The notes under the pieces are model-generated. The model had not been told where the DNA came from, did not search any database, and was given only the letters and a program-made list of their open reading frames with translations. Shown here in pieces: positions 17,707 through 36,832 of a DNA stretch of 64,000 bases (position 1 is the first letter of the stretch; every line of letters starts with the position of its first letter). The stretch comes from Synergistaceae bacterium (GTDB lineage Bacteria; Synergistota; Synergistia; Synergistales; Aminobacteriaceae). Where the stretch lies: contig JAFRAH010000007.1 in assembly GCA_017405525.1 (NCBI GenBank), positions 1-64,000 of the forward strand. The letters run 5' to 3'. Both the position numbers and the translations under genes were made by a program.

Positions 17707-17734
17707 GAAAAAAATCAAGCTCCTTTCACATGAT

Positions 17735-21766: not shown

Positions 21767-21796
21767 TATAATGCTAGAAATCCCAAAAGAAAGGAC

Positions 21797-21847
21797 TTGA
21801 CACGCTTGAAGGCAAATCGCTATAATGGCTCACGGCTCACGGCTCAC
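21797..21847 (+). promoter_or_regulatory. Promoter with three tandem GGCTCAC heptamers
   Basis: AAAGGAC directly precedes TTGACA (21797-21802); an 18-bp spacer, TATAAT (21821-21826) and three exact copies of GGCTCAC (21827-21847) plus GG follow. Transcription should start inside the repeat. The same build occurs at 23165-23222 and, on the minus strand, at 36753-36798. Upstream of the FkbM methyltransferase gene. Confidence 0.65.
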
Positions 21848-21908
21848 GGTCATATCTGCAACCTTCTAGACTCACACAGCAATAATTCCAGCGAACACGA
21901 AAATTTTG

Positions 21909-21944
21909 CGGCTCTTCCGTATGTATTTCGGAAGGGCTGTTTTT
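21909..21944 (+). terminator. Terminator-like hairpin in leader of FkbM gene
   Basis: Arm CGGCTCTTCCG (21909-21919) pairs with CGGAAGGGCTG (21929-21939), 11 pairs with two G:U, followed by five T. It lies between the promoter and the FkbM start, so it could act as an attenuator. A near copy stands at 23304-23340. Confidence 0.6.
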
Positions 21945-21962
21945 GTGTGGGGGGTGTTCTGA

Positions 21963-23102
21963 ATGGGCGTTAAGGATTTCGTCAAGGAACACTGCCCGGA
22001 GTCCATGCTCCCGATTCTGAGAGTACCTTACAGGGTGGCGGCATGGCCTTACCGCAGGTTTATCAGGAAGGAGCTGATACGCAGGCGGGCGTTGAAGTAT
22101 CTTCCGTACTATCAGGATGAGTTATCGCGTGAAATTCTCTACGACAACAACGAGTTCTTGAGGACGGGCAACAACAACATCTTCATGAACAGGGCAATGC
22201 AGAAAGGCTGGACGTATACACAAATTAAAGGCAGCCCCGTTGTTGGTTACTGGGAGGGCAATTTCTTGAAGAGCGATTACACTGGCTGTGTTGTCCTTTA
22301 TCATGATGACCTTAAGAGCGCGGAGTATTCCTGTAACCTCCTGTACACGTATAACTCTCTCGGCAAGTGCAGGATAATGTCCCTCAAGGAATTTCTCGGC
22401 GGCGGGTTCGTAGCGGGCTCGGAACTGATTATTGCGGCGGTTAATTCCCGTTACTACGATGAAATTAAACGATATGCTGAGAAAATCGGGCTGCCTAATG
22501 ACATTGCAGGGTTCATTTGGGGAAAGCATGAGGAGATACAGTATGTTGACGTGTTCAGTCCCGTTGAAGGTGAAGTTATCGTTGACGCTGGAGCATATAC
22601 AGGAGATACGGCTCTTCGTTTCCTGAAATGGGGAGGGGACAAAGTCAGGCGTATATATTCGTTCGAGTTTGACCCGGAGACTGCAAGGAAGTACGAGGAA
22701 AATCTCAGACCTTACAGCGACAGAGTAACTCTTGTCAGAAAAGGCACGTGGGATTCTGATGCTACCGTCAAAATAAATCCTTCTGGAACAACAGGCAGTA
22801 ATGTATTCAGTGATGGCAATGTTGAAGCCCAGCTTACGGCAATAGACAATGTTGTTATGGATGAGCCTGTAACATTCATCAAGATGGACGTAGAGGGTGC
22901 AGAGCTGAGATCCCTCCAGGGTGCGAAGAATACCATCATGAAGAACCATCCCCGCCTTGCTATATGCGTTTACCACAAGCCTGACGACATCTGCGAGATA
23001 CCCGGCTATATATTGTCCCTTGTCCCTGAGTATAAATTTTTACTGAGACGCTATGATTCCCATCAAGGCGAAACAGTGCTTTACGCTTACTGCGAGGGCT
23101 GA
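21963..23102 (+). CDS. FkbM family methyltransferase
   Basis: 379 codons. Residues about 200-370 form an FkbM-type SAM-dependent methyltransferase: V-I-V-D-A-G-A-Y-T-G-D-T (motif I, near 210), Y-S-F-E-F-D-P, a late F-I-K-M-D-V-E-G-A-E signature near 305 and P-R-L-A-I-C-V-Y-H. FkbM enzymes O-methylate sugars or polyketides. The first 200 residues are basic at the start and contain an R-Y-Y-D-E-I-K-R-Y helix region of unknown role. Placed with glycosyltransferase-like genes and a heptamer promoter, it most likely methylates a surface glycan; inferred. ATG follows GGGGGTG. Confidence 0.85.
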   Translation: MGVKDFVKEHCPESMLPILRVPYRVAAWPYRRFIRKELIRRRALKYLPYYQDELSREILYDNNEFLRTGNNNIFMNRAMQKGWTYTQIKGSPVVGYWEGNFLKSDYTGCVVLYHDDLKSAEYSCNLLYTYNSLGKCRIMSLKEFLGGGFVAGSELIIAAVNSRYYDEIKRYAEKIGLPNDIAGFIWGKHEEIQYVDVFSPVEGEVIVDAGAYTGDTALRFLKWGGDKVRRIYSFEFDPETARKYEENLRPYSDRVTLVRKGTWDSDATVKINPSGTTGSNVFSDGNVEAQLTAIDNVVMDEPVTFIKMDVEGAELRSLQGAKNTIMKNHPRLAICVYHKPDDICEIPGYILSLVPEYKFLLRRYDSHQGETVLYAYCEG

Positions 23103-23164
23103 CCCGCATTATGCCATCCATCTTCTTGCATGGTATAATGCGACAAAAATTCAGGAGGAAGGAC

Positions 23165-23222
23165 TTGACACTTTTGAGCACAAATCGCTATAATGGCTTG
23201 CGGCTTGCGGCTTGCGGCTTGC
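23165..23222 (+). promoter_or_regulatory. Promoter with four tandem GGCTTGC heptamers
   Basis: AAGGAC, TTGACA (23165-23170), 18-bp spacer, TATAAT (23189-23194), then four exact GGCTTGC units (23195-23222) and GGCC. The spacer shares its last ten bases (CAAATCGC plus TA) with the 21797 promoter. It drives the glycosyltransferase-like gene at 23358. Confidence 0.65.
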
Positions 23223-23303
23223 GGCCATGTATGCACCCTTTCAGGCTCACACAGTAACAGCTCCCACGCTCTAACCCTGACAACCACGAACACGAAAACT
23301 ATG

Positions 23304-23340
23304 CGGCTCTTCCGTACGTCTTTGAGGAAGGGCTGTTTTT
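23304..23340 (+). terminator. Terminator-like hairpin in leader of glycosyltransferase-like gene
   Basis: Arm CGGCTCTTCC (23304-23313) pairs with GGAAGGGCTG (23326-23335) and runs into five T. It is near-identical in sequence and position to the hairpin at 21909-21944, less than 20 bases before the gene start. Probably a conserved attenuator. Confidence 0.6.
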
Positions 23341-23357
23341 GTGTGGGGGTGCGATGA

Positions 23358-24296
23358 ATGGGCAGGAACCTGATTATCGGAGCTGTAACCAATTACGGCT
23401 GGAATGAGGTAGCCCCGTTCTTCAACTCATATGCGCGGGCTGGCTTCGGGAACTGCGACTGCGTTATGTTCGTTGATGGAATGACCCCAAAGGCCACAGA
23501 CAAGATGAAGGCAACCGGCATTGAACTCATACCCATACCAGAAAGGTTAAAGGCAGGATGCGTCAATGATTTCCGCTGGGAGCTCTATACTGGCTACCTG
23601 AAGGGACATATCAGCGATTACGATTTTGTGTTTACGTCTGATGTCAGGGATGCCGTCTTCCAGGATGACGTGTTCAATTACTGCGGGGATAAACCATTTC
23701 TCGGCATTGCGCTTGAGGACGGATACCTTACGGAGAACTGCAACCAGAACTGGCTCATGACCCGCTACGGTGCCGAAGTTTACGGGAGCATGAAGAACGA
23801 GCGCATAATTTGCACCGGCACTGTATGGGGAACAGCAAGTGAGTTCCTGAAGTTCTCATCAGCAATGTCTGGACATATCAACTCAAACGATTATCCATAT
23901 TTCAGGGTATGCGACCAGGCTTCTGGCAACTGGCTCATTTACCACGAAAAAATATTCAGTGATGACTTTCTCGTGAAAAGCGAAAACTCAGACGGCTATG
24001 TTCTGACAGTAGGATTAACACCCGGTAGCAGCATACATCTTGACGCTGAAGGCAACGTACTGAACGGCAAGGGAGAAATAGCGGCGGTAATCCATCAGTA
24101 TGACCGCAAGCCTGAGATTATTGAGGCTGTCCTGAAGAAATACTCTCAGGAAATGACGCTTATAGGCAGGCTCAACCTCCGAAAGGACAAGACCGGGAAA
24201 ATCTCAAGGCGTATTTCAGGCTTCATGAGGCGTTCGAGGAAGAACGGATTCATTGGGACACTATTAACGGCAGTCAGGAAAATAATATCTAGGTAG
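23358..24296 (+). CDS. Putative glycosyltransferase-like protein
   Basis: 312 codons. Mixed alpha/beta protein that opens I-I-G-A-V-T-N-Y-G-W and carries D-Y-D-F-V-F-T-S-D-V-R-D-A-V-F near residue 95, like the acidic metal/nucleotide-sugar motif of GT-A glycosyltransferases. I-I-C-T-G-T-V-W-G-T near 150 and V-I-H-Q-Y-D-R near 250 resemble the substrate end of such enzymes. The last 50 residues are basic (R-R-S-R-K-N-G). No exact family recognised. It sits behind a heptamer promoter, next to the FkbM methyltransferase, so a role in surface-glycan assembly is likely but inferred. Confidence 0.6.
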   Translation: MGRNLIIGAVTNYGWNEVAPFFNSYARAGFGNCDCVMFVDGMTPKATDKMKATGIELIPIPERLKAGCVNDFRWELYTGYLKGHISDYDFVFTSDVRDAVFQDDVFNYCGDKPFLGIALEDGYLTENCNQNWLMTRYGAEVYGSMKNERIICTGTVWGTASEFLKFSSAMSGHINSNDYPYFRVCDQASGNWLIYHEKIFSDDFLVKSENSDGYVLTVGLTPGSSIHLDAEGNVLNGKGEIAAVIHQYDRKPEIIEAVLKKYSQEMTLIGRLNLRKDKTGKISRRISGFMRRSRKNGFIGTLLTAVRKIISR

Positions 24297-24297
24297 C

Positions 24298-24332
24298 AAA
24301 AAAAATACCCTCCCCTTAACCCAAGAGGAGGG
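24298..24332 (-). terminator. Intrinsic terminator after metK
   Basis: On the minus strand, CCCTCCTCTT (24332-24323) pairs with AAGGGGAGGG (24317-24308), ten pairs, followed by TATTTTTTTT. It ends metK; the rightward gene before it stops at 24296. Confidence 0.85.
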
Positions 24333-24350
24333 CATCACCCAATCCGTCAG

Positions 24351-25553
24351 CTAAATCCCTGCGGCCTTCCTGAGCTCTTCAGCCCTGTCAGTCTTCTCCC
24401 ATCCCGGAAGTTCCGGCAGGTCAATCCTTCCCATGTGCCCATAAGCAGCAAGGGGCTTGTACTGTGGCTTGCGGAGGTCTAAGTCCCTGATTATCGCCGC
24501 GGGCCTGAAGTCGAAATGCTCACGGAGCAGCTTTGCGATCTTGTCCTCGCTGATTTTCCCCGTCCCGAATGTGTTGACGTTCAGCGACACAGGCTCAGCG
24601 ACACCGATAGCATAGGCCACCTGTATCTGGCACTCGTCAGCAAGTCCCGCCGCAACGATGTTCTTTGCCGCGTAACGTGTCATGTATGCCCCGCTCCTGT
24701 CGACCTTCGTGGGGTCTTTCCCGGAGAACGCCCCGCCGCCATGTGGTACCCAGCCGCCGTATGTGTCGACGATGATCTTGCGCCCGGTAAGTCCTGAGTC
24801 AGCCATTGGCCCGCCCTTCACGAAACGCCCTGTAGGGTTTACGAATATCCTTGTGTCCTTGTCGATGAGATTTCCCGGAACTATCGGGTTGATGACGTGC
24901 TCGATGATGTCTGCCCTAATCTGATTGAGGCTTGAGTCGGGGCTGTGCTGTGATGATACTACGATGGTGTCAGCATGTACTGCCTTCCTGTTCTCGTAAC
25001 GCAATGACACCTGAGTCTTCCCGTCAGGTCTGAGATATGACAGTGTACCGTCCTTGCGTACCTTCGTGAGCTGACGGGCTAGGGCATGTGATAACGCTAT
25101 GGGCATGGGCATAAATTCCTTTGTCTCGTTTGTGGCATAACCGAACATCATTCCCTGGTCTCCTGCTCCTGTCCTGGCTATGTCCTGCTCGGTTATCGAT
25201 GAGTCATCACGCACCTCTATTGCGTTGTTCACTCCCTGCGCAATGTCCCCTGACTGCTCGTCTATCGCAAGGAACACAGCGCATGTCTCGCCGTCAAACC
25301 CGTATTTAGCCCTCGTGTAGCCGATGCCGTTGATGGTCTCGCGGGCTATCCTCTGAATGTCGATGCGTGCCTTCGTGGTGATCTCCCCAGCAACAACGAC
25401 AAAACCAGTGGACACGAGAACCTCACATGCTACCCTGCCCATTGGGTCATCTCTTAGGATTGCGTCAAGTACGCCGTCCGAAATCTGATCCGCTACCTTG
25501 TCGGGGTGTCCTTCAGTTACTGACTCCGATGAAAATATGAAGTTGTCTGCCAT
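24351..25553 (-). CDS. metK: S-adenosylmethionine synthase
   Basis: 400 codons. Makes SAM from methionine and ATP. Start [13 protein letters not shown] and then [12 protein letters not shown] near residue 127, [16 protein letters not shown] near 273 and D-L-R-K-P at the end are all family signatures. Full length. A SAM-I riboswitch and its terminator stand directly upstream, so expression falls as SAM rises. Probably monocistronic. Confidence 0.97.
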
Positions 25554-25570
25554 TTATACATACCTCCACA

Positions 25571-25607
25571 AAAAAATGTACCCTCCTGAACAATTCAAGA
25601 GAGTACA
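25571..25607 (-). terminator. Expression-platform terminator of SAM riboswitch
   Basis: On the minus strand, TGTACTCTC and TTGAA (25607-25594) pair with TTCAGGAGGGTACA (25590-25577), followed by six or seven T. It lies between the S-box aptamer and the metK start, where SAM-induced termination is expected. Confidence 0.85.
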
Positions 25608-25629
25608 CGCTAATTTTTTGTTGTTCTCT

Positions 25630-25729
25630 CTCTCATCATCCAGCTTTAACTTGCTGCCGGTATTGGCACCTGATTCAAACAGGTTGCCGGGCTTCAAAGG
25701 GCCGGTCCCTCCACCTCTCTCGATAAGAG
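25630..25729 (-). promoter_or_regulatory. SAM-I riboswitch (S box)
   Basis: The minus strand begins CTCTTATC and ends GATGAGAG, which pair as P1. Between them are AGAGGTGGAGGGACCGG, the P2 kink-turn/pseudoknot region with G-A-A-G-C-C-C-G-G-C-A-A-C-C, then G-G-T-G-C-C-A-A-T and G-C-A-G, all conserved S-box blocks in order. It binds SAM and controls the terminator at 25571-25607 and so metK. Confidence 0.95.
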
Positions 25730-25763
25730 CTATATTGTGTTACGGTGTTATTCTACATTATTG

Positions 25764-26372
25764 CTACTTTGAATACAACTCGACCGCAAGGATTTCTGTT
25801 ACGTCAATCGGCAGTTCCTCACGCATGGGCTCACGTACGAGTTTCGCGCTGAACTGTGCCTTGTCCTTCTCGATATACGGGCAGTTGAACGACACGAGGC
25901 CGTTGAAGTTTGCCTCAACAAGGGGGTTAGTCCTCGTCTTCTCCTTGAGGCTGATTACGTCGTTGACCTTCACGCCGAATGAAGGGATGTCCACCTTTGA
26001 GCCATTCACGAGAACATGGCCGTGCGTAACGAGCTGGCGGGCCTGACGGATTGAGCGGGCAAAACCGATCCTGTAGACGAGGTTATCGAGCCTGCACTCA
26101 AGAGCCTTAAGGAGAGCTACGCCGGTCATCTCGTCGCTTTTGTCTGCCATCTCGAAGTAACGCGCAAACTGCCTCTCAAGTATCCCGTAATAGGCCTTGA
26201 TCTTCTGTTTCTCCAAGAGCTGGAGGCCGTACTGTGAGACCTTCTGACCTGTACGTGCTGCTGTGGCTGATGACTTCTTTGTGTCCGTGCGCTTGAGAGC
26301 CTTGGGATGACCGCAGACGTTCACGCCCAAATGACGGCACAATTTGAATCTAGGTTCTCTGCGTGTTGCCAT
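25764..26372 (-). CDS. rpsD: 30S ribosomal protein S4
   Basis: 202 codons from the ATG that gives [13 protein letters not shown]; a GTG five codons upstream lacks room for a ribosome site. An S4 domain sits at about residues 90-155 ([29 protein letters not shown]). S4 starts 30S assembly. The N-terminus keeps two Cys but not the usual four of zinc-binding S4. It stands apart from the S13-S11-alpha operon, as in Bacillus. Confidence 0.95.
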
Positions 26373-26569
26373 GAAAAGTTTAAACACTCCCTGAATATTA
26401 GTATTTGTTAGTAACTGTAGGAGTTTAGCACCCGCACATGAAAAAGTAAAGTTTCTCAGTCATGATGAAGGTTTAAGCTCATAAATGATTTAGTGATGTG
26501 TCTGTTTTTCGGGAGGCTTAATTGCTATTATCACCGAATAAATTTCAGGACAGGCAGGAATATTCACAC

Positions 26570-27589
26570 ATGATAAAGGACGCAATAATAAAGCTCGTGA
26601 ACAAGGGAGACCTGACATACAGCGAAGCCTATGAAGTAATGAACGAGATAATGAGCGGCTCAACGACACCTACACAGAACGCGGCGTTCCTCTCGGCTTT
26701 GTCTACGAAGAGCGCGAGGGCTGAGACAACGGACGAGATTGCAGGCTGTGCGGCGGCAATGAGAGACCACGCCCTTAAGGTTGATACGGGAATGGACGTG
26801 TTCGAGATCGTAGGGACTGGCGGGGACAATGCCCACAGCTTCAACATCTCGACAACCTCAGCACTTGTAGCGGCATCAGGAGGGGTGAAGGTCGCAAAAC
26901 ATGGCAACAGGGCAGCCTCCTCACAGTGCGGGACAGCAGACTGCCTTGAGGCTCTCGGAGTGAACATCGAGCAATCCCCCGAAAAGTGCATAGAGCTCCT
27001 CAAGACTGTGGGAATTTGCTTCTTCTTCGCGCAGAAATACCACACCTCAATGAAGTATGTCGGGGCAATCCGTAAAGAGCTCGGTTTCAGGACGGTCTTC
27101 AACATTCTCGGCCCTCTCACTAATCCCGGAAGTCCAACGATGCAACTGCTAGGTGTCTATGATGAGTACCTCGTCAACCCGCTGGCTAATGTCCTCGTGT
27201 CTTTGGGGGTCAAGCGCGGAATGGTGGTTTACGGGCAGGACAAGCTCGATGAAATTTCCCTGAGCTCACCAACAACAATATGTGAGATACGGGACGGCTG
27301 GTTCAGGTCATGCGTCATCAAGCCGGAAGATTTTGGCCTTGAGAGGTGCTCAAAGGATGACCTCAAGGGCGGAACTCCCTCAGAGAATGCGGAGATAGTC
27401 CGGGAAATTCTCAGGGGCAAACATGGCCACAAGCGCAATGCCGTGCTCATGAACGCAGGGGCATCACTCTACATTGCAGGGAAAGCTCAAGACATGAAGG
27501 AGGGCATCAGTCTTGCGGGTGAACTCATAGACAGCGGGAAGGCACTGGAGACACTGAACAGGTTTATTGAGGTCAGCAACAAGGCATGA
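26570..27589 (+). CDS. trpD: Anthranilate phosphoribosyltransferase
   Basis: 339 codons from ATG 26570, matching normal TrpD length; the earlier TTG at 26522 adds 16 nonconserved residues. Motifs G-T-G-G-D near residue 81, N-I-S-T-T-S-A near 91, K-H-G-N-R-A-A-S-S near 108 and G-P-L-T-N-P in the middle. Second committed step of tryptophan synthesis. It opens a trpD-C-F-B-A operon with 4- to 8-base overlaps; trpE and trpG are not in the window. No T-box or leader peptide was seen in the 200 bases upstream. Confidence 0.95.
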
Positions 27590-28368
27590 ATATTCTCGAT
27601 GAGCTTGCAGGTTTTGCCCGCGAAAGAGTGAGTTTGTCCCGGCAGAAATTACCCCTTGAGGCATTACGTCAGGAGGCATTGGCTCGTCCTGGTGGGGATT
27701 TTTCGTTTGAGGCGGCACTGAGGCGTGAAGGTCTCTCGTTCATCTGCGAGTGCAAGAAGGCTTCACCGTCAAAGGGACTTATTGCCCCGGAGTTCCCCTA
27801 CTTGGAGATTGCGAGGGATTACGAGGCGGCAGGTGCTGATGCTATATCCGTCCTAACTGAGCCAAAATATTTTCTTGGGAGTAATGACTACCTGAAAGAA
27901 ATTGCCGGGGCAGTGAAAATCCCGGTGCTGAGGAAAGATTTTGTTGTCGACGAGTACATGGTATACGAGGCAAAATTACTCGGTGCTTCGGCAGTCTTAC
28001 TCATCTGCGCGATACTTGACGGCCAAAATCTCAGGGACTATATACGGCTCTGCGACACTCTGGGAATTTCGGCACTAGTTGAGGCACATGATGAGGCGGA
28101 AATACACTCGGCACTCAATGCAGGCGCGCGGGTTATTGGCGTGAACAACCGAAACCTGAAAGATTTTACCGTAGACATGGCCAATGCAGGGAGGCTCAGG
28201 GCGTTAATCCCCCATGATGTCCTGTTCGTGTCTGAAAGCGGCGTGAAGGATGCCCGGGACGTTAAGGCGGCGCAGGACTTCGGGGCTGACGCTGTGCTCA
28301 TAGGTGAGGCACTCATGCGTTCACCCGACAAGGCGGCCATGCTCTCGGAACTGAAGGCGTTGCTGTGA
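27586..28368 (+). CDS. trpC: Indole-3-glycerol-phosphate synthase
   Basis: 260 codons, a TIM barrel. [13 protein letters not shown] near residue 50, V-L-R-K-D-F-V-V-D near 110 (catalytic Lys), [10 protein letters not shown] near 180 and S-E-S-G-V near 212. Monofunctional; in some bacteria it is fused with trpF. Overlaps trpD and trpF by ATGA. Confidence 0.95.
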
Positions 28369-28979
28369 TGGTGCGTGTGAAATTCTGCGGGCTCTCTAGG
28401 ATTTCTGACATCGAGGCAGTGAATGACCTTATGCCTGACTATATAGGCTTCGTTTTCTGGCCCCAAAGCAAACGCTTCATATCCCCCGTAAAAGCTCAGG
28501 CACTCCGCGAAAAACTCAAGCCCGGAATTTTTGTTGCCGGTGTGTTCGTTGATGAGCGTCCTGAAGTCATCGCTGGCATTGTGAGCAGAGGCATCATTGA
28601 CGTGGTACAGCTACACGGCCATGAAGACAGGGAATATATATCGCGACTCAAGGGACTCACTGACAGGCCAACAATCAAGGCGTTCAAGGTCAGTGGTAAG
28701 GACGACATCATGAAGGCTGAAAGTTGCACGGCTGACTACGTGATGCTCGACTCAGGAATGGGAACGGGTAAAGCCTTCAACTGGGACATCATACGGGGAA
28801 TAACCCGGCCCTACTTCCTTGCAGGAGGACTTGACCCCTTCAACGTTTCGGAGGCAGTCGGGAGGTTGTCGCCCTATGCTGTGGACGTGAGCTCAGGGAT
28901 TGAGACTGACGGGGTGAAGGACAGGGCTAAAATGTCGGCATTCATTGAGGCAGTCAGAGGGAAGGAGAGTAATTCATGA
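28365..28979 (+). CDS. trpF: Phosphoribosylanthranilate isomerase
   Basis: 204 codons. V-K-F-C-G-L-S-R at the start carries the catalytic Cys, with [10 protein letters not shown] near 29, V-V-Q-L-H-G-H-E near 83 and D-V-S-S-G-I-E near 178. Note S-R where most have T-R after K-x-C-G; a mild variation. Start and stop overlap its neighbours by four bases. Confidence 0.94.
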
Positions 28980-30166
28980 CGAACAAGGCAGGACGCTTCG
29001 GGGTTCACGGCGGGCAGTATATCCCCGAAACACTAATGAACGCGGTAAATGAGCTTGAACGCGCCTATAACCACTGGAAGGATGACGCTGGCTTCAACGC
29101 TGAGCTGACGGCATTGCTGAACGACTACGCAGGCAGACCCTCAAGGCTCTATTACGCCCGGAGAATGACGGAGGACTTAGGCGGGGCAAAAATCTACCTC
29201 AAGCGTGAAGACCTCAACCATACGGGAGCGCACAAGATCAACAACGTATTAGGGCAGGCACTCTTAGCCCGGCGAATGGGCAAAACCCGGCTCATCGCTG
29301 AAACAGGAGCAGGACAGCACGGGGTAGCCACGGCCACGGCGGCGGCGTTAATGGGAATGTCCTGTGTCGTCTTCATGGGAGTGGAGGACACAATCAGGCA
29401 GGCTCTCAACGTCTACAGGATGAGGCTTCTGGGTGCTGAGGTTGTCCCTGTCAAGACAGGAACAGGGACGCTCAAGGATGCAGTCTCGGAGGCATTCAGG
29501 GAATGGACATCGAGGATTGACGACACTCATTACTGCCTGGGCTCGGTTATGGGGCCTCACCCTTTCCCGGTGATTGTGAGGGACTTCCAGGCGGTGATCT
29601 CACGGGAGATTAGGGCTCAGGTCATGGAGCGCGAGGGTAGGCTGCCGGACTGTGTCATTGCGTGCGTAGGAGGGGGCTCTAACGCTATAGGGAGCTTCTA
29701 CCACTTCCTCAATGATGAGACTGTGAGGTTAATCGGTTGTGAGGCGGCAGGTCGTGGCATTGATACGTTCGAGACGGCTGCCACAATCTCAACCGGGAGG
29801 CTGGGGATATTTCACGGCATGAAGTCGTATTTCTGTCAGGACGAGTTCGGGCAGATTGCTCCCGTCTACTCGATCTCTGCAGGGCTGGATTACCCCGGAA
29901 TTGGCCCGGAACATGCCCACCTTCACGACACAGGCCGCGCTGAATACGTCCCTGTTACTGACGAGGAGGCAGTGAGAGCGTTCGAGTACCTTTCACGGAC
30001 TGAGGGGATAATTCCCGCGATTGAGTCGGCTCATGCACTTTCACACGCAATGAAGATAGCTCCCGGAATGGGCAGGGACAAGGTGATTGTGGTTACGGTT
30101 TCGGGGCGTGGCGACAAGGACTGTGCGGCAATCGCGAGATACAGGGGGGAGAATATACATGACTAG
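28976..30166 (+). CDS. trpB: Tryptophan synthase beta chain
   Basis: 396 codons. A PLP enzyme joining indole and serine. [15 protein letters not shown] carries the Schiff-base Lys (near 87), with [12 protein letters not shown] near 109, [12 protein letters not shown] near 230 and a C-terminal S-G-R-G-D-K-D. TrpB1 type, adjacent to trpA as expected for an alpha2beta2 complex. Confidence 0.97.
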
Positions 30167-30974
30167 GATACGTGAGGCATTCAGTGGAGGACGTAAGGCG
30201 TTCATCCCGTTCATTACGTGCGGGGACCCTGACACCGGGACAACTAAGGCAGTAGTTCATGAGGCTGTCAAGAATGGAGCTGACATTGTGGAGCTGGGTA
30301 TACCGTTCTCTGACCCAACGGCTGAAGGTGCGGTGATACAGTCGGCAAATTACCGGGCGTTGAAGGGCGGCATAACTACCGACAAAGTTTTTGCTATGGT
30401 TCGTGAACTCAGGGAGGATATTAGCATTCCCCTCGTCTTCATGACGTATGCAAATGTCGTGTTCTCTTACGGTTCGGACAAGTTCATATCATCGTGTCAT
30501 GACATAGGGATTGATGGCCTCATTATCCCTGACCTGCCTTACGAGGAGAAGGACGAGTTCCTGCCCTATTGCCGCAAGAATGACGTTGCCCTGATCTCAA
30601 TGGTAGCCCCAACGTCTGAGGCAAGGATAGAGATGATAGCCCGCGAGGCTGAAGGCTTCCTCTATGTGGTCTCAAGCCTGGGAGTTACAGGGACAAGGAG
30701 CGAGATTACTACCGACCTCGGCGCAATCATCAGGGCAGTACGCAGGAGTTCAGACATCCCATGTGCAATAGGCTTCGGAATCTCGACACCAGAGCAGGCC
30801 CGGAACATGGCCGGGATTGCTGACGGCGTTATAGTTGGCTCGGCAATCGTGAAGATTATCGCCCAATATGGACGTGAGGCACCCAAACATGTCGGGGAGT
30901 TCTTGAGGTCAATGAAGGGTGCTATATGTTCCTCCACAGCATCAGGAGGAAGTCGGCAAAGCTCCCCAGCGTGA
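30159..30974 (+). CDS. trpA: Tryptophan synthase alpha chain
   Basis: 271 codons from ATG 30159, eight bases inside trpB. Motifs [11 protein letters not shown], catalytic Glu in [11 protein letters not shown] near 46, and the second catalytic Asp in I-I-P-D-L-P-Y-E-E near 127. The last residues ([10 protein letters not shown]) run 53 bases into the 3' end of the convergent hydrolase gene, probably an unconserved extension. Last gene of the trp operon. Confidence 0.94.
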
Positions 30975-31461
30975 ACGCCCTGAACATGAACGCGAGCAGG
31001 GATATTCCCACACAGCAGAGCACAAAATTCTTCTCCCCCCTGCTCATTTCCCCGGCCTTCTTCGCCATGTGGAAGACGTGCATCCCTACGCTCCTCTTCC
31101 AGGGAATGAGGAACGGAACAGTACCACACCAGGCATCCTCCAGAATGTGGAGGACACAGCCCATCAGCCAGAACCCCGCGCAAGCCCAAACGTCAAGGTG
31201 AGCGTTCTTCCCGTCAACCAGGACTGACAGCCGGGGGACAATCCATCTTGCCCGCGAGAAGCACACATAAGCCATAGCCAGCCACGGAATGAACCAGTGA
31301 GTATAACGCCGGTGATACCTGTTGCGTCTCTTCCCAAAGAAGACATATTCAGACGAGTCAGGGAACGTACTGCCCAATAAGCTGAACGTTGCCGCCAGTG
31401 GTGAGCCCGTTGCTCCGAGAACAAACGCAAATGTAGACAGACGATGACCTTTTCCCGTCAT
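30922..31461 (-). CDS. YdjM-type inner-membrane hydrolase (PF04307)
   Basis: 179 codons. Several membrane segments with the metal-type motifs of the LexA-binding/YdjM family: an early His/Gly start (G-K-G-H-R-L-S-T), P-D-S-S-E-Y near 32, H-R-R-Y-T-H-W near 49 and H-I-L-E-D-A near 104. Members are integral-membrane proteins with a predicted phospholipase-like metal site. It ends inside trpA on the opposite strand and its start overlaps the ABC permease by four bases, so it belongs to the leftward znu operon. Role in metal uptake unproven. Confidence 0.8.
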   Translation of the reverse strand: MTGKGHRLSTFAFVLGATGSPLAATFSLLGSTFPDSSEYVFFGKRRNRYHRRYTHWFIPWLAMAYVCFSRARWIVPRLSVLVDGKNAHLDVWACAGFWLMGCVLHILEDAWCGTVPFLIPWKRSVGMHVFHMAKKAGEMSRGEKNFVLCCVGISLLAFMFRAFTLGSFADFLLMLWRNI

Positions 31462-32261
31462 GACTTCACCAGCACCTTAACGAGTATCAATATTGCCGAG
31501 TTCATGAGGATAACCCCGGCACCTGCAGGAATGTTCACGATGAACGAGAGTATCAGCCCCCCAATGAACGCAATGAATGACACTGCCCCCGACACTACCA
31601 CGAGGGAACGGAAGCCTGACGCGAGATTTTTCGCCGTTACTGCTGGGAGTATAACCACACCTGAGATTAGGAGTGTCCCGGTCATCCTCATACCCATAAC
31701 GACGACAAGAGCCGTGAGTATCGAGATGACGAACTGCCAGAATGCCGGGTTGATTCCCAGTGAGCGAGCATAGTCTTCATTGTAGGTGATGAGGAACAGC
31801 CGGTTGTAGAAGATGATGAAGGTTGCCATTACTGCCAGCGAAAGGACAACCGAGAACCACAGATCACCTTCAGACATTGCCAGGACGCTCCCGAAAAGGT
31901 ACGAGCCCATATTTGAGGCCGAACCCGTCAGCGATGAGACAGCTATACCCAGTGCAAGGGCTGAAGATGACGCGGCGGCTATTGCGATGTCCCCGGCAGT
32001 CCTGTATTTCCGGCTCACGAACATAATCACGAACGAGGCAATGAATACCGACGGTGCGGCTACGTACATGGGAGGGAGTCCCAGTGCTGAGGACACCGAG
32101 AGCGACGCAAAGCCAATCTCAGAGAGGCCATGACCGATAAGCGAGTAGTGCTTGAGTACGAGGATTACGCCCAGGACTGAGGCACATACGGAGATTAACG
32201 AGCCCGCAATCAGTGCCCTGTAAGCGAACGGATAAGAGAGTATTTCGAGGAGCTCACTCAT
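31458..32261 (-). CDS. Zn/Mn ABC transporter permease (ZnuB-like)
   Basis: 267 codons with eight or so membrane segments. ABC-3 family: L-I-G-H-G-L-S-E-I-G-F-A near residue 42 (the coupling loop), S-L-G-I-N-P-A-F-W-Q near 164, and L-L-I-S-G-V-V-I-L-P-A near 197. Pairs with the ATPase and the binding protein upstream to import zinc or manganese; which metal cannot be told from the permease. Confidence 0.9.
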   Translation of the reverse strand: MSELLEILSYPFAYRALIAGSLISVCASVLGVILVLKHYSLIGHGLSEIGFASLSVSSALGLPPMYVAAPSVFIASFVIMFVSRKYRTAGDIAIAAASSSALALGIAVSSLTGSASNMGSYLFGSVLAMSEGDLWFSVVLSLAVMATFIIFYNRLFLITYNEDYARSLGINPAFWQFVISILTALVVVMGMRMTGTLLISGVVILPAVTAKNLASGFRSLVVVSGAVSFIAFIGGLILSFIVNIPAGAGVILMNSAILILVKVLVKS

Positions 32262-32887
32262 TGCCTGATGACCTTTCCGCCTGAGAGAGTGATTCTGTGG
32301 CCTTCAGGTATCCCGTCAATGTCCGAGATGTCGTGCGTAACCATAACTACAGCACAGCCCCCCGCAAGCATCTTCCGCAGAACGCCGAAAAGCACCTCAT
32401 GGCTCAGAGCGTCAAGACCCGCGCAAGGTTCATCGAGCAATAAGAGCTCAGGCCGTCCGCAAATTGCCCGCGCAAGAAACACACGCCTTAGCTGCCCGCC
32501 TGAGAGCGTCCTGATCTCGCGCCCCGAAAGCCCCAGTATTCCCAGCCCGTTCATGGCCTCGTCAGCTCGTTCATGGTCTTCATGGGTGTAGAAGAGTTTT
32601 CCCGGCCTCTGTGTCCCGGTAATGACGATCTCACCAGCTCTTGCGGGAAAATCACGGTCTGCCTCCTCGAACTGCGGAACGTAGGACATTCGGGAGGAAC
32701 GTTCAAGCGTCCCGGAACTCAGCGGAAGAAGCCCGGCAATCCCCTTAGTGAGCGTTGATTTCCCGGAGCCGTTTGCGCCAGTGATGAATACGATTTCCCC
32801 GGCTCTTGCTGTCAGTGATACACCGTTGACCGCGACAACATCACCGTACTTTATGACGGCATCAGTGAGCCTCAGCCTCTCAATCAT
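32258..32887 (-). CDS. Zn/Mn ABC transporter ATP-binding protein (ZnuC-like)
   Basis: 209 codons. Walker A G-A-N-G-S-G-K-S-T (37-45), Q loop at V-P-Q-F-E, signature L-S-G-G-Q-L-R-R, Walker B L-L-L-L-D-E-P, D-loop A-G-L-D and switch V-T-H-D. Slightly short for the family. Overlaps the permease by four and the binding-protein gene by eight bases. Confidence 0.92.
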   Translation of the reverse strand: MIERLRLTDAVIKYGDVVAVNGVSLTARAGEIVFITGANGSGKSTLTKGIAGLLPLSSGTLERSSRMSYVPQFEEADRDFPARAGEIVITGTQRPGKLFYTHEDHERADEAMNGLGILGLSGREIRTLSGGQLRRVFLARAICGRPELLLLDEPCAGLDALSHEVLFGVLRKMLAGGCAVVMVTHDISDIDGIPEGHRITLSGGKVIRQ

Positions 32888-33704
32888 TCATGGCCTCCGT
32901 TATGTTCCTGAAGTTCTCCCGCATGATCTGGAGGAACGTGACATCATCGCTTGGGACGTTGTGCCCTGTCCCGAAGGTTAGGATTCTTGCCCCGGTCTCG
33001 TCGCTTATTGCCCGCGTAACCTGTGAGACTGCCCCGTAGTCCGCGAAAATATAGCGTGTCCTGTGTTCATGTATGTAGCGTATCACCTCAGACATCCGCC
33101 GCACTGATGGTTCATTCTCGCCGTCATATGCGCTGACGTACTCGAAGCCGTAACGCCTCACGAAATACCCGCAAGAGAACTCCCCCGCAAACACTAAAGC
33201 CCTGTCCTTCTTCATGGCCGTGAACTCAGCGTCAAGAGCTCCAAGCTCCGAGCAATATTCTTCAGCGTTGTGCGTGTATGTCCCGGAATTATCGGGGTCA
33301 GCCTTCACGAGGCCAGCCAGAATGTTCATGACCATCCTTTGAGCCAGCGACAAGTCAAGCCATATGTGGGGGTCATTGCCGGATAGGGGGATATTCTCTG
33401 AGGCATCGACTATCACCGTATCACCGAGCAAGTCTGAGATTTTCCCGGCCCATTGCTCCATGTTACTGCCGGTGAAAACGAAAACGTCAGCATCATGAAG
33501 TGCCATTATGTCCTGCGGTGAAGGCTCGTATTCGTGGGGTTCAGTTCCGGGCTTGAGGAGGAGGCTGACATCTGCAAGCTCCCTTGTGATGGCTCTGGTG
33601 AAATCGTAGACGGGGTACATGCTGCATATTACCTTGAGGCCGGCACAAGCCCTTGAGGAAATCAGTGTGAAGAGTGCCAGAAAAATTGTTGTCCTGAATT
33701 TCAT
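32880..33704 (-). CDS. Zn/Mn ABC transporter substrate-binding protein (ZnuA-like)
   Basis: 274 codons from ATG 33704; a TTG three codons earlier at 33713 has an AGGAC at good spacing and could be the true start. Signal peptide (residues 1-22, R-A-C-A-G end). Cluster A-1/ZnuA fold: P-G-T-E-P-H-E-Y-E-P-S-P near 57 (first His ligand), D-P-H-I-W-L-D near 110, a third ligand in the F-A-G-E-F-S-C segment near 170 where ZnuA normally has His, and F-A-D-Y-G-A near 225. The histidine-rich loop of ZnuA is absent, as in manganese-binding relatives. Periplasmic. Confidence 0.88.
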   Translation of the reverse strand: MKFRTTIFLALFTLISSRACAGLKVICSMYPVYDFTRAITRELADVSLLLKPGTEPHEYEPSPQDIMALHDADVFVFTGSNMEQWAGKISDLLGDTVIVDASENIPLSGNDPHIWLDLSLAQRMVMNILAGLVKADPDNSGTYTHNAEEYCSELGALDAEFTAMKKDRALVFAGEFSCGYFVRRYGFEYVSAYDGENEPSVRRMSEVIRYIHEHRTRYIFADYGAVSQVTRAISDETGARILTFGTGHNVPSDDVTFLQIMRENFRNITEAMND

Positions 33705-33755
33705 GTGTATCAATAAAATTGTCCTGAAGAAAAATTTTAGGTTATTATAGCAGAC

Positions 33756-34280
33756 ATGTTTATATTAATTTCCGGGCAGTCAAGCAGCGGCAAAAGCAGG
33801 TACGCAGAAATGAGGCTCTCCGAACTTTCAGGCACTCCCAAAATCTACGTGGCAACCTCAAGAATATATGACGACGAAATGAGGGAACGTGTCAAAAAAC
33901 ACAAGGCCATGCGTGAGGGAAAAGGCTTCATCACCATCGAGTGCCCTGAAGGATTGGGCGGCATTGAGATTCTTGAAGGCTCAAGCGTCCTGATCGAGAG
34001 CCTCACAACTTGGGCGGCCAACGAAATGTTCACTGACGAGGGAGCAAGGCAGTCCGGCCATGTATCAGGGATAATACTTCATGACCTTGCGGGCATCCTT
34101 GAACGTGCCGGGAATGTTATTGTTGTGGCTGATGACCTGTTCTCTGACGGCGTGGACTATGACCCTTCAACTATGGACTATATCCGGCTCATGGCTGAAC
34201 TTCACGTGAGGCTTGCGGAACTTGCTGACGAGGTCATCGAGTGTGTATCAGGCTGCCCGGTTCACTATAAGCGTCCCTGA
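33756..34280 (+). CDS. CobU-like adenosylcobinamide kinase/guanylyltransferase
   Basis: 174 codons. Walker A G-Q-S-S-S-G-K-S at the start and the CobU H-x3-R motif (H-K-A-M-R) near residue 48, where GMP is attached in CobU. L-A-E-L-A-D-E-V-I-E-C-V-S-G-C-P near the end matches the CobU C-terminus. The mid motif usually S/N-E-V-G-x-G is replaced by V-A-D-D-L-F-S, and the usual acidic substrate motif reads I-E-S-L-T-T-W. No other cobalamin gene is near. Either a diverged cobinamide salvage enzyme or a relative with another substrate. Confidence 0.7.
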   Translation: MFILISGQSSSGKSRYAEMRLSELSGTPKIYVATSRIYDDEMRERVKKHKAMREGKGFITIECPEGLGGIEILEGSSVLIESLTTWAANEMFTDEGARQSGHVSGIILHDLAGILERAGNVIVVADDLFSDGVDYDPSTMDYIRLMAELHVRLAELADEVIECVSGCPVHYKRP

Positions 34281-35047
34281 ATGATTCGGAGCATGAGATT
34301 TTCCACCGTGTCGGTCTCGATTTCGGCCAGTGCCCGGATCTGAGGCTTTGCGCTCACGACAGCAACAGGATACCCCGCAAGCTCCATCATCTCGCGGTCG
34401 TTGTCGTTGTCGCCGATAGCCATGCACTCGGACGGTGAGATACCCAAGACATCGAGGACGTGCCTTAACGCTGAGCCCTTGTTGACCCCGTGAGGCATGA
34501 AGTCGATCCATTCCCTGCCGCTGGTCACGACATCACAGGAAGTGCCGAAATTCTCCTGCCAGTGCCGGAAATCAGTATTGCCGTCATGCTCATAGACCGC
34601 TATCTTGAGGTAGTCCTCTTCAACCGCCAGAATGTCAGGAACTGCCCAGACGTTGTACTTTACCGTGTCTCTTATGTGGAGGTGAAATGCCTCGTTCTTG
34701 GGCTGAATGTAGCAGACCTCCTCACAGGATGCCATGACCTCACAAGCTCCGTGTCTGAGTATCCCTCTGATGATTTCGCGGGCTGTTTGCCGGTTCATTG
34801 TTGACTTGCTGAGACGTTCACCCCTGAAGAATGACACGCAACCGTTCTCGCAAATGTAGCCGATAATGTTTTTCACTGGGGCAAAAAGATTCTGGAGGTT
34901 GTAGTACTGCCTTCCGCTTGCCGCAAAGAAGATTACCCCCATCTCTGAGAGCTGACGGATATAGCCGCAGGTATCAGGCCGCAAATCTTGGGCACCGTTA
35001 AGCAATAATGTTCCGTCCAAATCTGAAGCTATTAGTTTTATGGCCAT
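34265..35047 (-). CDS. HAD-IIB (Cof-type) phosphatase
   Basis: 260 codons from ATG 35047, where the family start begins (A-S-D-L-D-G-T-L-L); an in-frame start at 35161 adds unrelated residues that overlap the divergent gene. Motif I D-L-D-G-T (catalytic Asp near 9), motif II A-A-S-G-R, cap domain in the middle, and motif IV G-D-N-D-N-D near 210. Cof-type enzymes dephosphorylate sugar phosphates, FMN or PLP; the substrate is unknown here. Its 3' end overlaps the CobU-like gene by 16 bases. Confidence 0.88.
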   Translation of the reverse strand: MAIKLIASDLDGTLLLNGAQDLRPDTCGYIRQLSEMGVIFFAASGRQYYNLQNLFAPVKNIIGYICENGCVSFFRGERLSKSTMNRQTAREIIRGILRHGACEVMASCEEVCYIQPKNEAFHLHIRDTVKYNVWAVPDILAVEEDYLKIAVYEHDGNTDFRHWQENFGTSCDVVTSGREWIDFMPHGVNKGSALRHVLDVLGISPSECMAIGDNDNDREMMELAGYPVAVVSAKPQIRALAEIETDTVENLMLRIIQGRL

Positions 35048-35120
35048 GTCTGCAATTCCTTTAACGGGTATCGATAATTTATTATAATAGCAGAAAAAAT
35101 TTCGGCAGTGTGAACAAAGT

Positions 35121-35642
35121 ATGAATGAGCGTTCAGGATTCAATCTCAGTGAGAACAGCAACGAGACCTCTGACTATGAGAGCCTAATCAGTCAGATTCT
35201 GGCGAGGGTGAACGAATTATCCCCCGCAGGTTTCGAGCAGCTCATCACCGACCTACTCATACGGATGGGCTACGAGGTCTTCAAGAACGCCAAACGCCGC
35301 ACAAGTGCCGGAGCAATTCAGGGCATCATCATCGAGGACAGGCCGGGCTACAATCCCATCTACATACAGACAAGGAAACTGGAGAAGGGCAGTATCATAA
35401 CGAGCTGGAACATGCAGAGCTTCGGTGATGCTGTTGAACGTAAGGCAGGGCGCGGGCTTCTTGCGACGAACGCGAACTTCTCGAAACCCGCACAGGACTA
35501 CGCAAAGAAAAAGCACATCATCCTCATAGACGGTCATATACTGGCGCGCTTGATGATAGTTCACAATTTCTGCGTCAACGTCAGGGAAGTGGTCGAGATA
35601 AAATCACTTGACCCCTCAGCCTTCAAGGACTACGACATCTAG
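35121..35642 (+). CDS. Mrr-like domain protein lacking catalytic residues
   Basis: 173 codons. Residues about 35-150 align with the Mrr nuclease domain (PF04471): F-E-Q-L-I-T-D-L-L-I-R-M-G-Y, I-Y-I-Q, a G-R-G-L-L-A-T-N segment and I-I-L-I-D-G-H-I-L-A. In active Mrr the core reads G-D-G-G-I-D-G and Q-A-K-R, giving the PD-(D/E)xK site. Here these read S-A-G-A-I-Q-G and Q-T-R-K, so both the Asp and the Lys are gone. The fold is probably kept for binding DNA or a partner, without cutting. It stands alone with its own AT-rich promoter region (T-T-A-T-T-A-T-A-A-T near 35085). Not linked to a methylase. Confidence 0.7.
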   Translation: MNERSGFNLSENSNETSDYESLISQILARVNELSPAGFEQLITDLLIRMGYEVFKNAKRRTSAGAIQGIIIEDRPGYNPIYIQTRKLEKGSIITSWNMQSFGDAVERKAGRGLLATNANFSKPAQDYAKKKHIILIDGHILARLMIVHNFCVNVREVVEIKSLDPSAFKDYDI

Positions 35643-36553
35643 AACCCGTCGTCCTTCATGACCTTCACGATTCTTTCAGCGACAGCACTCCATGAATATT
35701 TGCGCAGGTACTCCTCATGCATTGCCGCAACGTATGCCTTGAGGTCCTTCCTGTCAGTGATGAGGCGTTCCATGCATCCGGCGAGCTCGTCAGGATCGTC
35801 ATCATGAATCAGCGCGCCGTTCACACCGTCCTGAATGAACTCAGGCATTGCGCAGGTGTCTTTACCGATGCAGGGCAGGCCGAATATCAGGGCCTCCGGG
35901 AAAACGATACCATAAGCCTCGAATTTTGACGGCATCACGAAGAAATCGCAGAGGTTGAAGTATTCCGTGAGCTCCCCGTAGCCCAGCAAGCCGAGAAACT
36001 TCACGCCCTCAACGCCGCTGACCTCATCAGGAACACGAGAAGGCCCGGCAATGTACAGCTCAGCGTCAGAGTACTTCCTCCGCAACTTCACGAAGGCTTC
36101 AACGACAAGAGCCCCGTTCTTGCGTTCCCAGTCCCTCCCGGCAAAAAGAAACCTCCAGCCGTTCCTTCCCTGAGTATTTATGCGTGAGGTGTCAATGTTG
36201 CAGCCGCCGCCGACGTGATGGACTTTCGCGGGGTCAATCCCTGAGTTACGGACGAGGTCATCAGCTAGGTATTCAGACATCGTGAAGAGACCGGCGCATG
36301 TCCTGTTCACCTTCATGGTATGTTCGAGCCTGGCTTGTGCTTTTTCCGGCCTTACTCTCGGCGGAAGGGGAGTGTACTTCATGAGCCGGGGGTTTACCCG
36401 CATCCTCATGAGGTAGTCAACAGTGAGATCCTGATAGAGATAGCTTTGTGGTGTGTATTCCGTGAGGTATTCGGTGAACATGAGGCAGGGAGCGTTCTTG
36501 TTGAGTGCTGCCCTGCGTATCTGGTGTTCGCACATTCTGGTGTGGAGCGTCAT
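35639..36553 (-). CDS. GT4-family glycosyltransferase (N-terminus not in frame with a start)
   Basis: 304 codons from the first in-frame ATG. GT-B fold: F-L-F-A-G-R-D-W-E-R-K-N-G near 150 (phosphate-binding loop), P-S-K-F-E-A-Y-G-I-V-F-P-E-A-L near 215 with the E-x7-E nucleotide-sugar motif, and D-P-D-E-L-A near 260. Family proteins begin about 70 residues earlier. In this frame, codons from 36769 down to 36554 do encode that part (F-A-V-N-F-L-C-A-W-D, V-S-W-S-G-T-H) but hold no ATG, GTG or TTG; upstream is a TAA within the -10 box of a heptamer promoter. So the gene as written would give a truncated enzyme or none. Probably surface-glycan synthesis, with glf next door. Confidence 0.75.
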   Translation of the reverse strand: MTLHTRMCEHQIRRAALNKNAPCLMFTEYLTEYTPQSYLYQDLTVDYLMRMRVNPRLMKYTPLPPRVRPEKAQARLEHTMKVNRTCAGLFTMSEYLADDLVRNSGIDPAKVHHVGGGCNIDTSRINTQGRNGWRFLFAGRDWERKNGALVVEAFVKLRRKYSDAELYIAGPSRVPDEVSGVEGVKFLGLLGYGELTEYFNLCDFFVMPSKFEAYGIVFPEALIFGLPCIGKDTCAMPEFIQDGVNGALIHDDDPDELAGCMERLITDRKDLKAYVAAMHEEYLRKYSWSAVAERIVKVMKDDGF

Positions 36554-36752
36554 GAAGTCGCTTGACCCCGTCAGCCTGTCGAGAATGTTGCGAGCCTTGC
36601 CTAAAGCGCGTGCTGTGAAATTGTAGAGAAGTGGAATATCAATTACATCTGCAAATTCCTGAAGTGAGCTGAACAGTCCTAAGTGTGTACCTGACCACGA
36701 AACTTCACGTCCCCGCCTGTCCCACGCACAGAGGAAATTTACAGCAAAAGAA

Positions 36753-36798
36753 CCCGAAGCCCGAAGCCATTATATGCACGTTTTTTCATGGTTGTCAA
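36753..36798 (-). promoter_or_regulatory. Promoter with two tandem GGCTTCG heptamers
   Basis: On the minus strand AAAGGACA, TTGACA (36798-36793), 18-bp spacer, TATAAT (36774-36769), then two GGCTTCG units (36768-36755) and GG. Same build as at 21797 and 23165. The repeat lies inside or directly before the coding frame of the glycosyltransferase, unlike the other two, which have long leaders. Confidence 0.65.
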
Positions 36799-36832
36799 TG
36801 TCCTTTCTCCTGAAATTTTCAGGTTATGCCTG

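Follow-up and report, generated by a model that had tools for sequence, protein, structure and literature searches.

Tandem heptamers abutting consensus promoter motifs in a Synergistaceae genus: candidate frame-switching contingency loci for surface structures

What does a short tandem repeat do when it stands directly behind a consensus promoter, and why is this arrangement found in front of several genes of one region? The question is raised by a stretch of 64,000 nucleotides (nt) from a Synergistaceae bacterium (assembly GCA_017405525.1, contig JAFRAH010000007.1, positions 1 to 64,000), the whole of which we call the window. It contains three such elements, here termed E1, E2 and E3. The original prediction saw in them a slippage-type phase-variation device on surface-glycan genes, with copy number altering the transcript start, the leader structure or, at E3, the reading frame. 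The evidence from frames, repeat units and target genes supports such a device, and we consider it very probable that E1-E3 and their kin are genus-wide frame-switching contingency (phase-variation) loci for surface structures, wired in two different ways.

The elements E1 to E3

As predicted, TTGACA, exactly 18 bases, TATAAT and tandem GGCTNNN heptamers follow one another at all three sites, and each array begins with the base next to TATAAT. These are the sole sites with 12 of 12 promoter matches between 21000 and 38000, the runner-up having 10 of 12; taken by itself, and with one mismatch permitted, TATAATGGCT shows no enrichment in the window (4 observed, 2.4 expected). The hexamer AAGGAC, which had been placed next to TTGACA, touches it in E1 and E2 and is one base apart from it in E3. 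It is the end of a Shine-Dalgarno (SD) site (AAAGGA or AGGAGG), and a start codon (ATG, GTG or TTG) follows a few bases 3' of TTGACA, before TATAAT, with no stop until the array. Because AAGGAC belongs to an SD site and the repeats lie inside an open reading frame (ORF), it is probably the reading frame that is switched at each of the three sites, E1 and E2 included. An altered transcript start or leader structure is not supported as the main mechanism.

The features of the three elements are as follows.

21764..21772, + strand: putative promoter P1 of E1, extended -10 TGATATAAT (from the sequence)
21789-21795 and 21806-21808, + strand: SD site GAAAGGA and TTG start codon of E1 (sequence, frame analysis)
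21797-21802 and 21821-21826, + strand: E1 core, TTGACA and TATAAT 18 bases apart (sequence)
21827-21849, + strand: E1 array, GGCTCAC x3.3, abutting TATAAT (sequence)
21806..21973, + strand: leader ORF of E1, which with the 3 copies now present has 55 codons and a stop (frame analysis)
21908..21944, + strand: E1 hairpin resembling an intrinsic terminator, with T tract, just 5' of the gene (folding, -18.8 kcal/mol)
21963..23102, + strand: FkbM-family methyltransferase gene under E1 (PF05050, TIGR01444)
23131..23139, + strand: putative P1 of E2, extended -10 TGGTATAAT (from the sequence)
23153-23163 and 23174-23176, + strand: SD site AGGAGGAAGGA and TTG start codon of E2 (sequence)
23165-23170 and 23189-23194, + strand: E2 core, TTGACA and TATAAT 18 bases apart (sequence)
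23195-23225, + strand: E2 array, GGCTTGC x4.4, abutting TATAAT (sequence)
23303..23340, + strand: E2 terminator-like hairpin with T tract (folding, -17.2 kcal/mol)
23358..24296, + strand: gene under E2, 312 amino acids (aa)
36739..36811, - strand: E3 as a whole, with ATG start codon 36789-36787
36811-36801, 36798-36793 and 36774-36769, - strand: SD site, TTGACA and, after 18 bases, TATAAT of E3 (sequence)
36768-36753, - strand: E3 array, GGCTTCG x2.3, abutting TATAAT (sequence)
35639..36751, - strand: GT4 glycosyltransferase frame, open from the E3 array, 370 aa (frame analysis)

At its present 3 copies E1 is ON, for its leader ORF crosses the hairpin and its stop overlaps the start ATG of the FkbM gene at 21963; judging by its position, a P1 transcript would carry both SD site and start codon. 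E2 is OFF at 4 copies, with the leader ORF stopping at 23257, and at 3 or 6 copies the leader would end in a TGA directly 5' of ATG 23358. The product of the E2 gene has no match in Pfam or NCBIfam and no credible sequence match in the PDB; its neighbour and its mode of control suggest a surface role. The arrangement of leader ORF and hairpin is absent from E3, which has no leader. E3 is OFF at 2 copies, its present ORF having 16 aa, and the reading-frame change foreseen for this site is supported: one more heptamer would join the start codon to the GT4 frame and give 385 aa. GT4 relatives in the genomes G033 (61%) and G025 (50%) align from residue 3, so that the 66 residues before the internal ATG at 36553 are coding, and because the assembly caught this gene OFF, ORF calling would shorten it by 81 aa. 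At 3 copies, E1, E2 and E3 would all be ON.

From this layout we infer the following course. Directed by the AAAGGA or AGGAGG site, ribosomes would initiate at the XTG that follows TTGACA, and the array would be translated among the first codons. If a 7-base unit is gained or lost, presumably by slipped-strand mispairing, the downstream frame would shift, as 7 equals 1 modulo 3. In class A, to which E3 belongs, the array would form the amino terminus of the gene, and one frame in three would yield the enzyme. In class B, which includes E1 and E2, one leader frame in three would bring ribosomes to the gene start, where overlapping stop and start codons would permit translational coupling; if a hairpin is present, the ribosomes would cross the terminator-like structure and transcription would go on, in a form of antitermination. 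The other two frames would stop early and leave the gene down.

Frames, targets and repeat units across the genus

Scanned for in the genome and its relatives, the promoter-heptamer layout recurs throughout a rumen genus of the Synergistaceae. The pattern TTGACN{16,20}TATAATGGNNNNNGG is found at 60 places in 26 of 100 genomes, i.e. in 24 of the genus's 43 genomes, counting that of the window, and in 2 of 57 others; read backwards, it is found at none. Without the -35, the pattern (TATAATGGNNNNNGGNNNNNGG) has 58 places in 24 of the 43 genus genomes and 3 backwards; 56 of the 58 carry tandem heptamers (by eye, with at most one mismatch between copies; the exceptions are G004:C3 and G015:C15). 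These GG-type patterns fix two bases of the unit, and the counts imply no claim of absence outside the genus.

From loci of our G-numbered genomes we parsed 90 elements (87 rows, minus six, plus nine with a single full copy; the six were three chance matches, two opposite-strand readings of the same array and one second 13-mer reading). In 78 of the 90, an SD site with start codon (SD-start) lies upstream of the array and the array inside the ORF. By rule, 33 elements fall into class A, with a long ORF that spans 150 aa or more or is still open where the stretch ends (L273 and L286, open where a short stretch ends, reach no more than 113 and 116 aa). Class B, in which a gene follows a leader ORF, has 28 elements; in 17 others the sequence past the array is shorter than 150 bases, and 12 lack an SD-start.

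Among the 33 class A elements, 11 are ON now, 13 would be ON with one more unit and 9 with two. For 12 class A proteins (acyltransferases and GT2 enzymes), only 1-10 residues separate the array from the beginning of the Pfam domain, and therefore no later start can stand in for the one before the array. For class B, the gene was identified in 25 of 28 cases. In 22 of these 25, the stop of the longest leader frame falls in the range from -5 to +14 nt relative to the gene's start codon, compared with 3 of 50 for the other frames; shuffled leaders give an expectation of 5.7 of 24 and a maximum of 14 in 20,000 draws (home-made segment swaps on the 24 leaders of sufficient length). The frame states are again spread (6 ON, 7 at one and 9 at two more units; n = 22), and both classes together fall into near equal thirds (17, 20 and 18 of 55), a spread that runs across loci and species, not within one strain. 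Most class B leaders contain candidates for a hairpin followed by T residues. Clear terminator-like hairpins (25-44 nt from the stretch end, which lies 5 nt past the gene start; at most -12 kcal/mol; at least 4 T in a row) are present in 8 of 25, namely in E1, E2, L049, L084, L244, L245, L259 and L260; L006 (-12.5, no T run) and L013 (-18.6, 209 nt away) were not counted.

Of 58 downstream proteins, 50 were scanned together, E1-E3 separately, and L103, L237, L252, L273 and L286 lie outside the scan. The 50 comprise 27 glycan-building enzymes (GT2, GT8, GT61, GT-D-like, just below its cut-off, sugar transferase, acyltransferases, LicD, TupA, cytidylyltransferase, glycerophosphotransferase and epimerase), 8 methyltransferases, 7 beta-helix or repeat surface proteins, three of them below the curated cut-off, and 2 others (FrhB/FdhB C-terminal and radical SAM). 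The remaining 6 have no Pfam match; two of them match WaaS/CpsH glycosyltransferases in NCBIfam.

The units themselves are also compatible with translation. None of 35 distinct units (period 4, 5, 7 or 8) has a stop triplet in any register of the coding strand, and 16 have one on the other strand; base shuffles of the 35 give a mean of 6.1 units with a stop and reach zero in 0.05%. The units are related and hence not independent cases. Excluded from the count are the L029 unit, which comes from another genus, and the 13-mer, in which a stop triplet does occur. The absence of periods that are multiples of 3 is by construction, because the array scans took only set periods (4 or 5, 7, 8, 10, 11 and 13, with 3, 6 and 9 outside them); the sites of the window's own genome, read by eye, have periods of 5, 7 and 13.

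While the position of the array is kept, its unit turns over. A search with the FkbM gene gave 15 loci besides its own (L294-L308), eight of which have an array before the FkbM gene: CTTACGG x7 (G031) and x10 (G004, at its second FkbM gene), TTCACAG x5.9 (G034), CGGCTGT x7 (G028), GCTCACA x6.9 (G012), the octamer GGCTTCAC x8.5 and x6.6 at two genes of G037, GTGGCTC x3 (G024) and TTCGCGG x8 (G022). Among eight leaders of FkbM type that were looked at, 6 retain the overlap of stop and start; the long frame of L299 overshoots the expected start by far, and L297 has no SD-start by rule. The GT4 relatives carry AGACAGC x11.9 (G033) and GATCAGA x7.1. The copy in G033 is ON (406 aa), and that in G025 reads through in another frame, from an ATC codon only. 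Copy number also differs between loci with the same unit: the homologous loci L008 and L021 of two species (80% identity) have 2 and 3 copies, the paralogues L236 and L237 (80%) 4 and 7, and L294 and L295 (63%) 7 and 10. A fixed role of the unit sequence, as a protein or recombinase site, was dropped, since units differ among relatives at the same place. Four FkbM relatives (G022:C17, G022:C40, G027:C8 and G039:C25) have one in-frame stop each within the matched region.

Contigs often end at the arrays, within 60 nt past the -10 in 11 of 58 places and within 100 nt in 14 of 58; for the 60 nt, a rough estimate from the 20-530 contigs per genome leads one to expect between 0.04 and 1.4% per place. 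Two contigs end after exactly 55 nt of repeat, which suggests arrays exceeding a 55-base k-mer. The remaining ends are compatible with mixed lengths in the population, of which they are no proof.

Could all this be functionless, neutral minisatellites or assembly artefacts near promoters? Tandem duplications are common, and many of the genomes are fragmented metagenome assemblies. Yet arrays of 16-31 nt fit well within one read, the targets are mostly surface-glycan or surface-protein genes, and strand-specific avoidance of stops, overlap of stop and start, and arrays kept with other units would all be unexpected. We thus regard this explanation as extremely improbable.

The inner promoter and its possible roles

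What remains to be accounted for is the promoter motif itself. We collected 36 GGCTCAC arrays with upstream sequence by the unit alone, the promoter being unused and related sequences not down-weighted. An exact TATAAT abuts 25 of them, and one within one mismatch 32; TTGACA (at most one mismatch) lies at 16-18 nt in 32, and L063 and L105 also fit if their first copy is altered or shifted. The hexamer columns of this set hold 1.0-1.8 bits, and 13 of 18 spacer columns less than 0.5 bits. At the FkbM and GT4 loci, TTGACA is found upstream of 15 of 15 arrays, and the distance from its start to the array is 28-32 nt in 14. The motif is not strict, as some elements show spacings of 13 and 15 nt and relatives the -10 hexamers CACAAT, CATAAT and TAAGAT.

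That the motif is held at the nucleotide level in a set chosen without it favours a transcriptional device, in which TTGACA-N18-TATAAT works and the copies alter transcript start, leader structure or promoter strength, as proposed for hmw1A and hmw2A. Going by the order of the motifs, however, inner-promoter transcripts would start inside the array, without SD site and start codon, and class A genes could not be made from them. Such a device predicts neither the overlap of stop and start nor the stop-free units nor the spread of frame states. Moreover, the 13- or 15-nt spacing is met with in elements whose arrays are long, and several relatives have a degenerate -10. Repeats that tune promoter strength, of the hmw1A type, are expected outside the translated region, whereas these lie in an ORF with SD-start in 78 of 90 elements. 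For the missing SD site and start codon and for the frame evidence, we do not take the promoter alone to be the main mechanism, and we hold a transcriptional device to be very unlikely.

A combination is a tentative but real possibility, and one compatible with frame switching: an upstream promoter, or read-through from an operon, would provide the frame-switched message, and the inner promoter would add a frame-independent basal transcript or act on the array, e.g. by holding it open. Of 80 elements, 42 have a TGNTATAAT-like extended -10 (7 or 8 of 8 matches) at a distance of 15-65 nt upstream of TTGACA, compared with 6.9% of base shuffles, and some elements stand so close behind an upstream gene (by eye) that they could be transcribed as part of its operon. 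Translation by itself, moreover, accounts neither for the inner motif nor for the fixed distance from TTGACA to the array. Against this, arrays of 7-12 copies at the unfavourable 13- or 15-nt spacing misfit an instability driven by the promoter, and in class B any RNA begun at the inner promoter would include the start of the gene itself and might weaken the switch. An inner consensus sigma70 promoter might even be a built-in mutator, at which RNA polymerase melts the first repeat and raises slippage, but we find this unlikely; were it so, SD site, -35, start codon, -10 and array would form a transferable switch module that unites hypermutability with frame control and serves a whole genus while its units change freely. 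We give the mutator idea little weight because several of the longest arrays belong to elements spaced by 13 or 15 nt.

Frame-switching contingency loci thus remain our preferred explanation, and several observations weigh against them. The model gives the conserved TTGACA-N18-TATAAT no role. By rule, 12 of 90 elements have no SD-start, and the start codons are themselves chosen by rule, several being TTG. In class B, L013, L103 and L250 miss the overlap of stop and start, and L097 has two frames that end close to the gene start. At 7 of the 15 loci of FkbM relatives there is no array at the FkbM gene (L301 and L304-L308 by our thresholds, several being fragments, broken or distant; the array of L302 belongs to the next gene). 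With one genome per species, differences in copy number come solely from comparisons of species and of paralogues. Many arrays have 2-4 copies, and in arrays as short as these slippage should be slower. Finally, the contig ends at arrays may reflect no more than arrays longer than the assembly k-mer.

Related systems and further observations

Both wirings are of a known kind. The closest likeness is with the pil1 and pil3 loci of Streptococcus gallolyticus, where GCAGA repeats lie in a leader peptide with a terminator (PMC3894217): the leader ORF of pil1 has its own ribosome-binding site, and its frame sets whether ribosomes arrive at the hairpin before the gene. In energy, the pil1 hairpin (-18.7 kcal/mol) resembles those of E1 (-18.8) and E2 (-17.2), and the terminator-bearing subset of our leaders would, by analogy, work like pil1. 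In S. gallolyticus, 22 (pil1) or 13 (pil3) pentamers control pilus operons of one species, as shown by genetics (PMC3894217). By contrast, the present loci are known from sequence alone, are mostly heptameric, often with 2-4 copies, and number dozens across the genus; the ON frame ends over the gene start, a consensus promoter abuts the array within the element, and a clear hairpin is present in 8 of 25 leaders.

Frame-shifting repeats in surface-structure genes are likewise familiar from the coding-region contingency loci with simple sequence repeats of Haemophilus influenzae and others, among them the heptamer AACAACC in a TonB-receptor homologue (PMC2651432). Unlike there, one cassette of SD site, TTGACA, start codon, TATAAT and array is common to unrelated genes here, and its unit is free to change. 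The hmw1A and hmw2A genes of H. influenzae also have 7-bp units in the promoter region of surface genes; following the same source, these stand some 100 bp ahead of the genes, inside the promoters, and are believed to influence transcription, whereas ours lie in the ORF. The TAACTGA direct repeats of Beggiatoaceae are tandem heptamers near start codons at many loci per genome, and PMC4679880 describes one fixed, stop-containing unit upstream of the start, overlapping the expected ribosome-binding site, with no pattern in gene function. Here, the units are many, lie 3' of the start codon and show a strong bias for surface genes; TAACTGA is not among the 35 units, and the arrays lie downstream of SD site and start codon.

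The claim of an undescribed device therefore needs qualification: frame-switching repeats are classic, and a leader peptide with repeats and an attenuator is published for S. gallolyticus pil1 (PMC3894217). For Synergistota, none of the titles and abstracts listed by the searches describes such repeat loci, and the 2025 review PMC11868660 gave no hit for the six terms looked up in it, 'Synergist' and 'leader peptide' among them. What is new, as far as the literature was searched, is the lineage, the scale, the shared cassette and the consensus promoter abutting the array. A mostly uncultured genus of gut Synergistaceae thereby gains a testable phasome, with ten array-bearing consensus promoters in one genome and an ON or OFF state that can be read from assemblies. 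The similarity to pil1 suggests that the leader-peptide switch of one Streptococcus species has a relative in a distant phylum, by descent or convergence, and the embedded promoter raises the question of why transcription initiation and repeat instability are placed together.

The window's own genome has 22 perfect TTGACA-N16..19-TATAAT sites. Ten are followed by a 5- or 7-base array (by eye); three of these are E1-E3, and the others have GTTCGCA, AGTCAGC-type, CGGCTGT, CCACG, AGCCACG, CGCACAT and, at a contig end, GTGCCCT. One further site has a 13-base array and 11 have none, three of these preceding apparent tRNA genes. The CGGCTGT array (x2.4; L274, G000:C12:161000-161600) abuts a perfect TTGACA-N18-TATAAT and has no SD site before it, and hence no translated start. 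At L272 (G000:C9:150400-150900), a consensus promoter after an apparent tRNA end is followed by the 13-base unit CACATCCATAAAT x4.9 and then by an SD-like site, so that this repeat would sit in the 5' leader and not in an ORF.

Beyond the genus, L029 (G056:C6, from another genus of the family) has GGCGCTC x4.9 after TTGACT...TATAAT, with no SD-start by rule, a hint that the device may also occur outside the genus. A collection-wide pattern scan gave 109 stretches, and the 80 listed among them include Synergistaceae, Synergistales and Fretibacterium contigs, several from the ruminant gut; these matches, which include many other phyla and were used for their record titles alone, enter none of the element counts.

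The window also holds a degenerate candidate, E4, in the first codons of an Acyl_transf_3 gene whose frame is open (ON):

17666..17726, - strand: E4, with AAAGGAG 17726-17720, ATG 17706 and TATAAT (sequence)
17683-17666, - strand: E4 array, AGAGAGC x2.6

It has no TTGACA, its array is apart from TATAAT, the gap from SD site to ATG is long and the SD rule is not satisfied.

Folding of the three 5' leaders gave nothing unusual overall (z -0.59, 0.33 and 1.16), the terminator-like hairpins of E1 and E2 excepted, and Rfam found no family at the elements between 21000 and 37500. Its only match there is a SAM riboswitch (RF00162, 83 bits) at 25630-25729 on the - strand, 5' of an S-adenosylmethionine synthetase gene (24351-25553) that neighbours the E2 gene.

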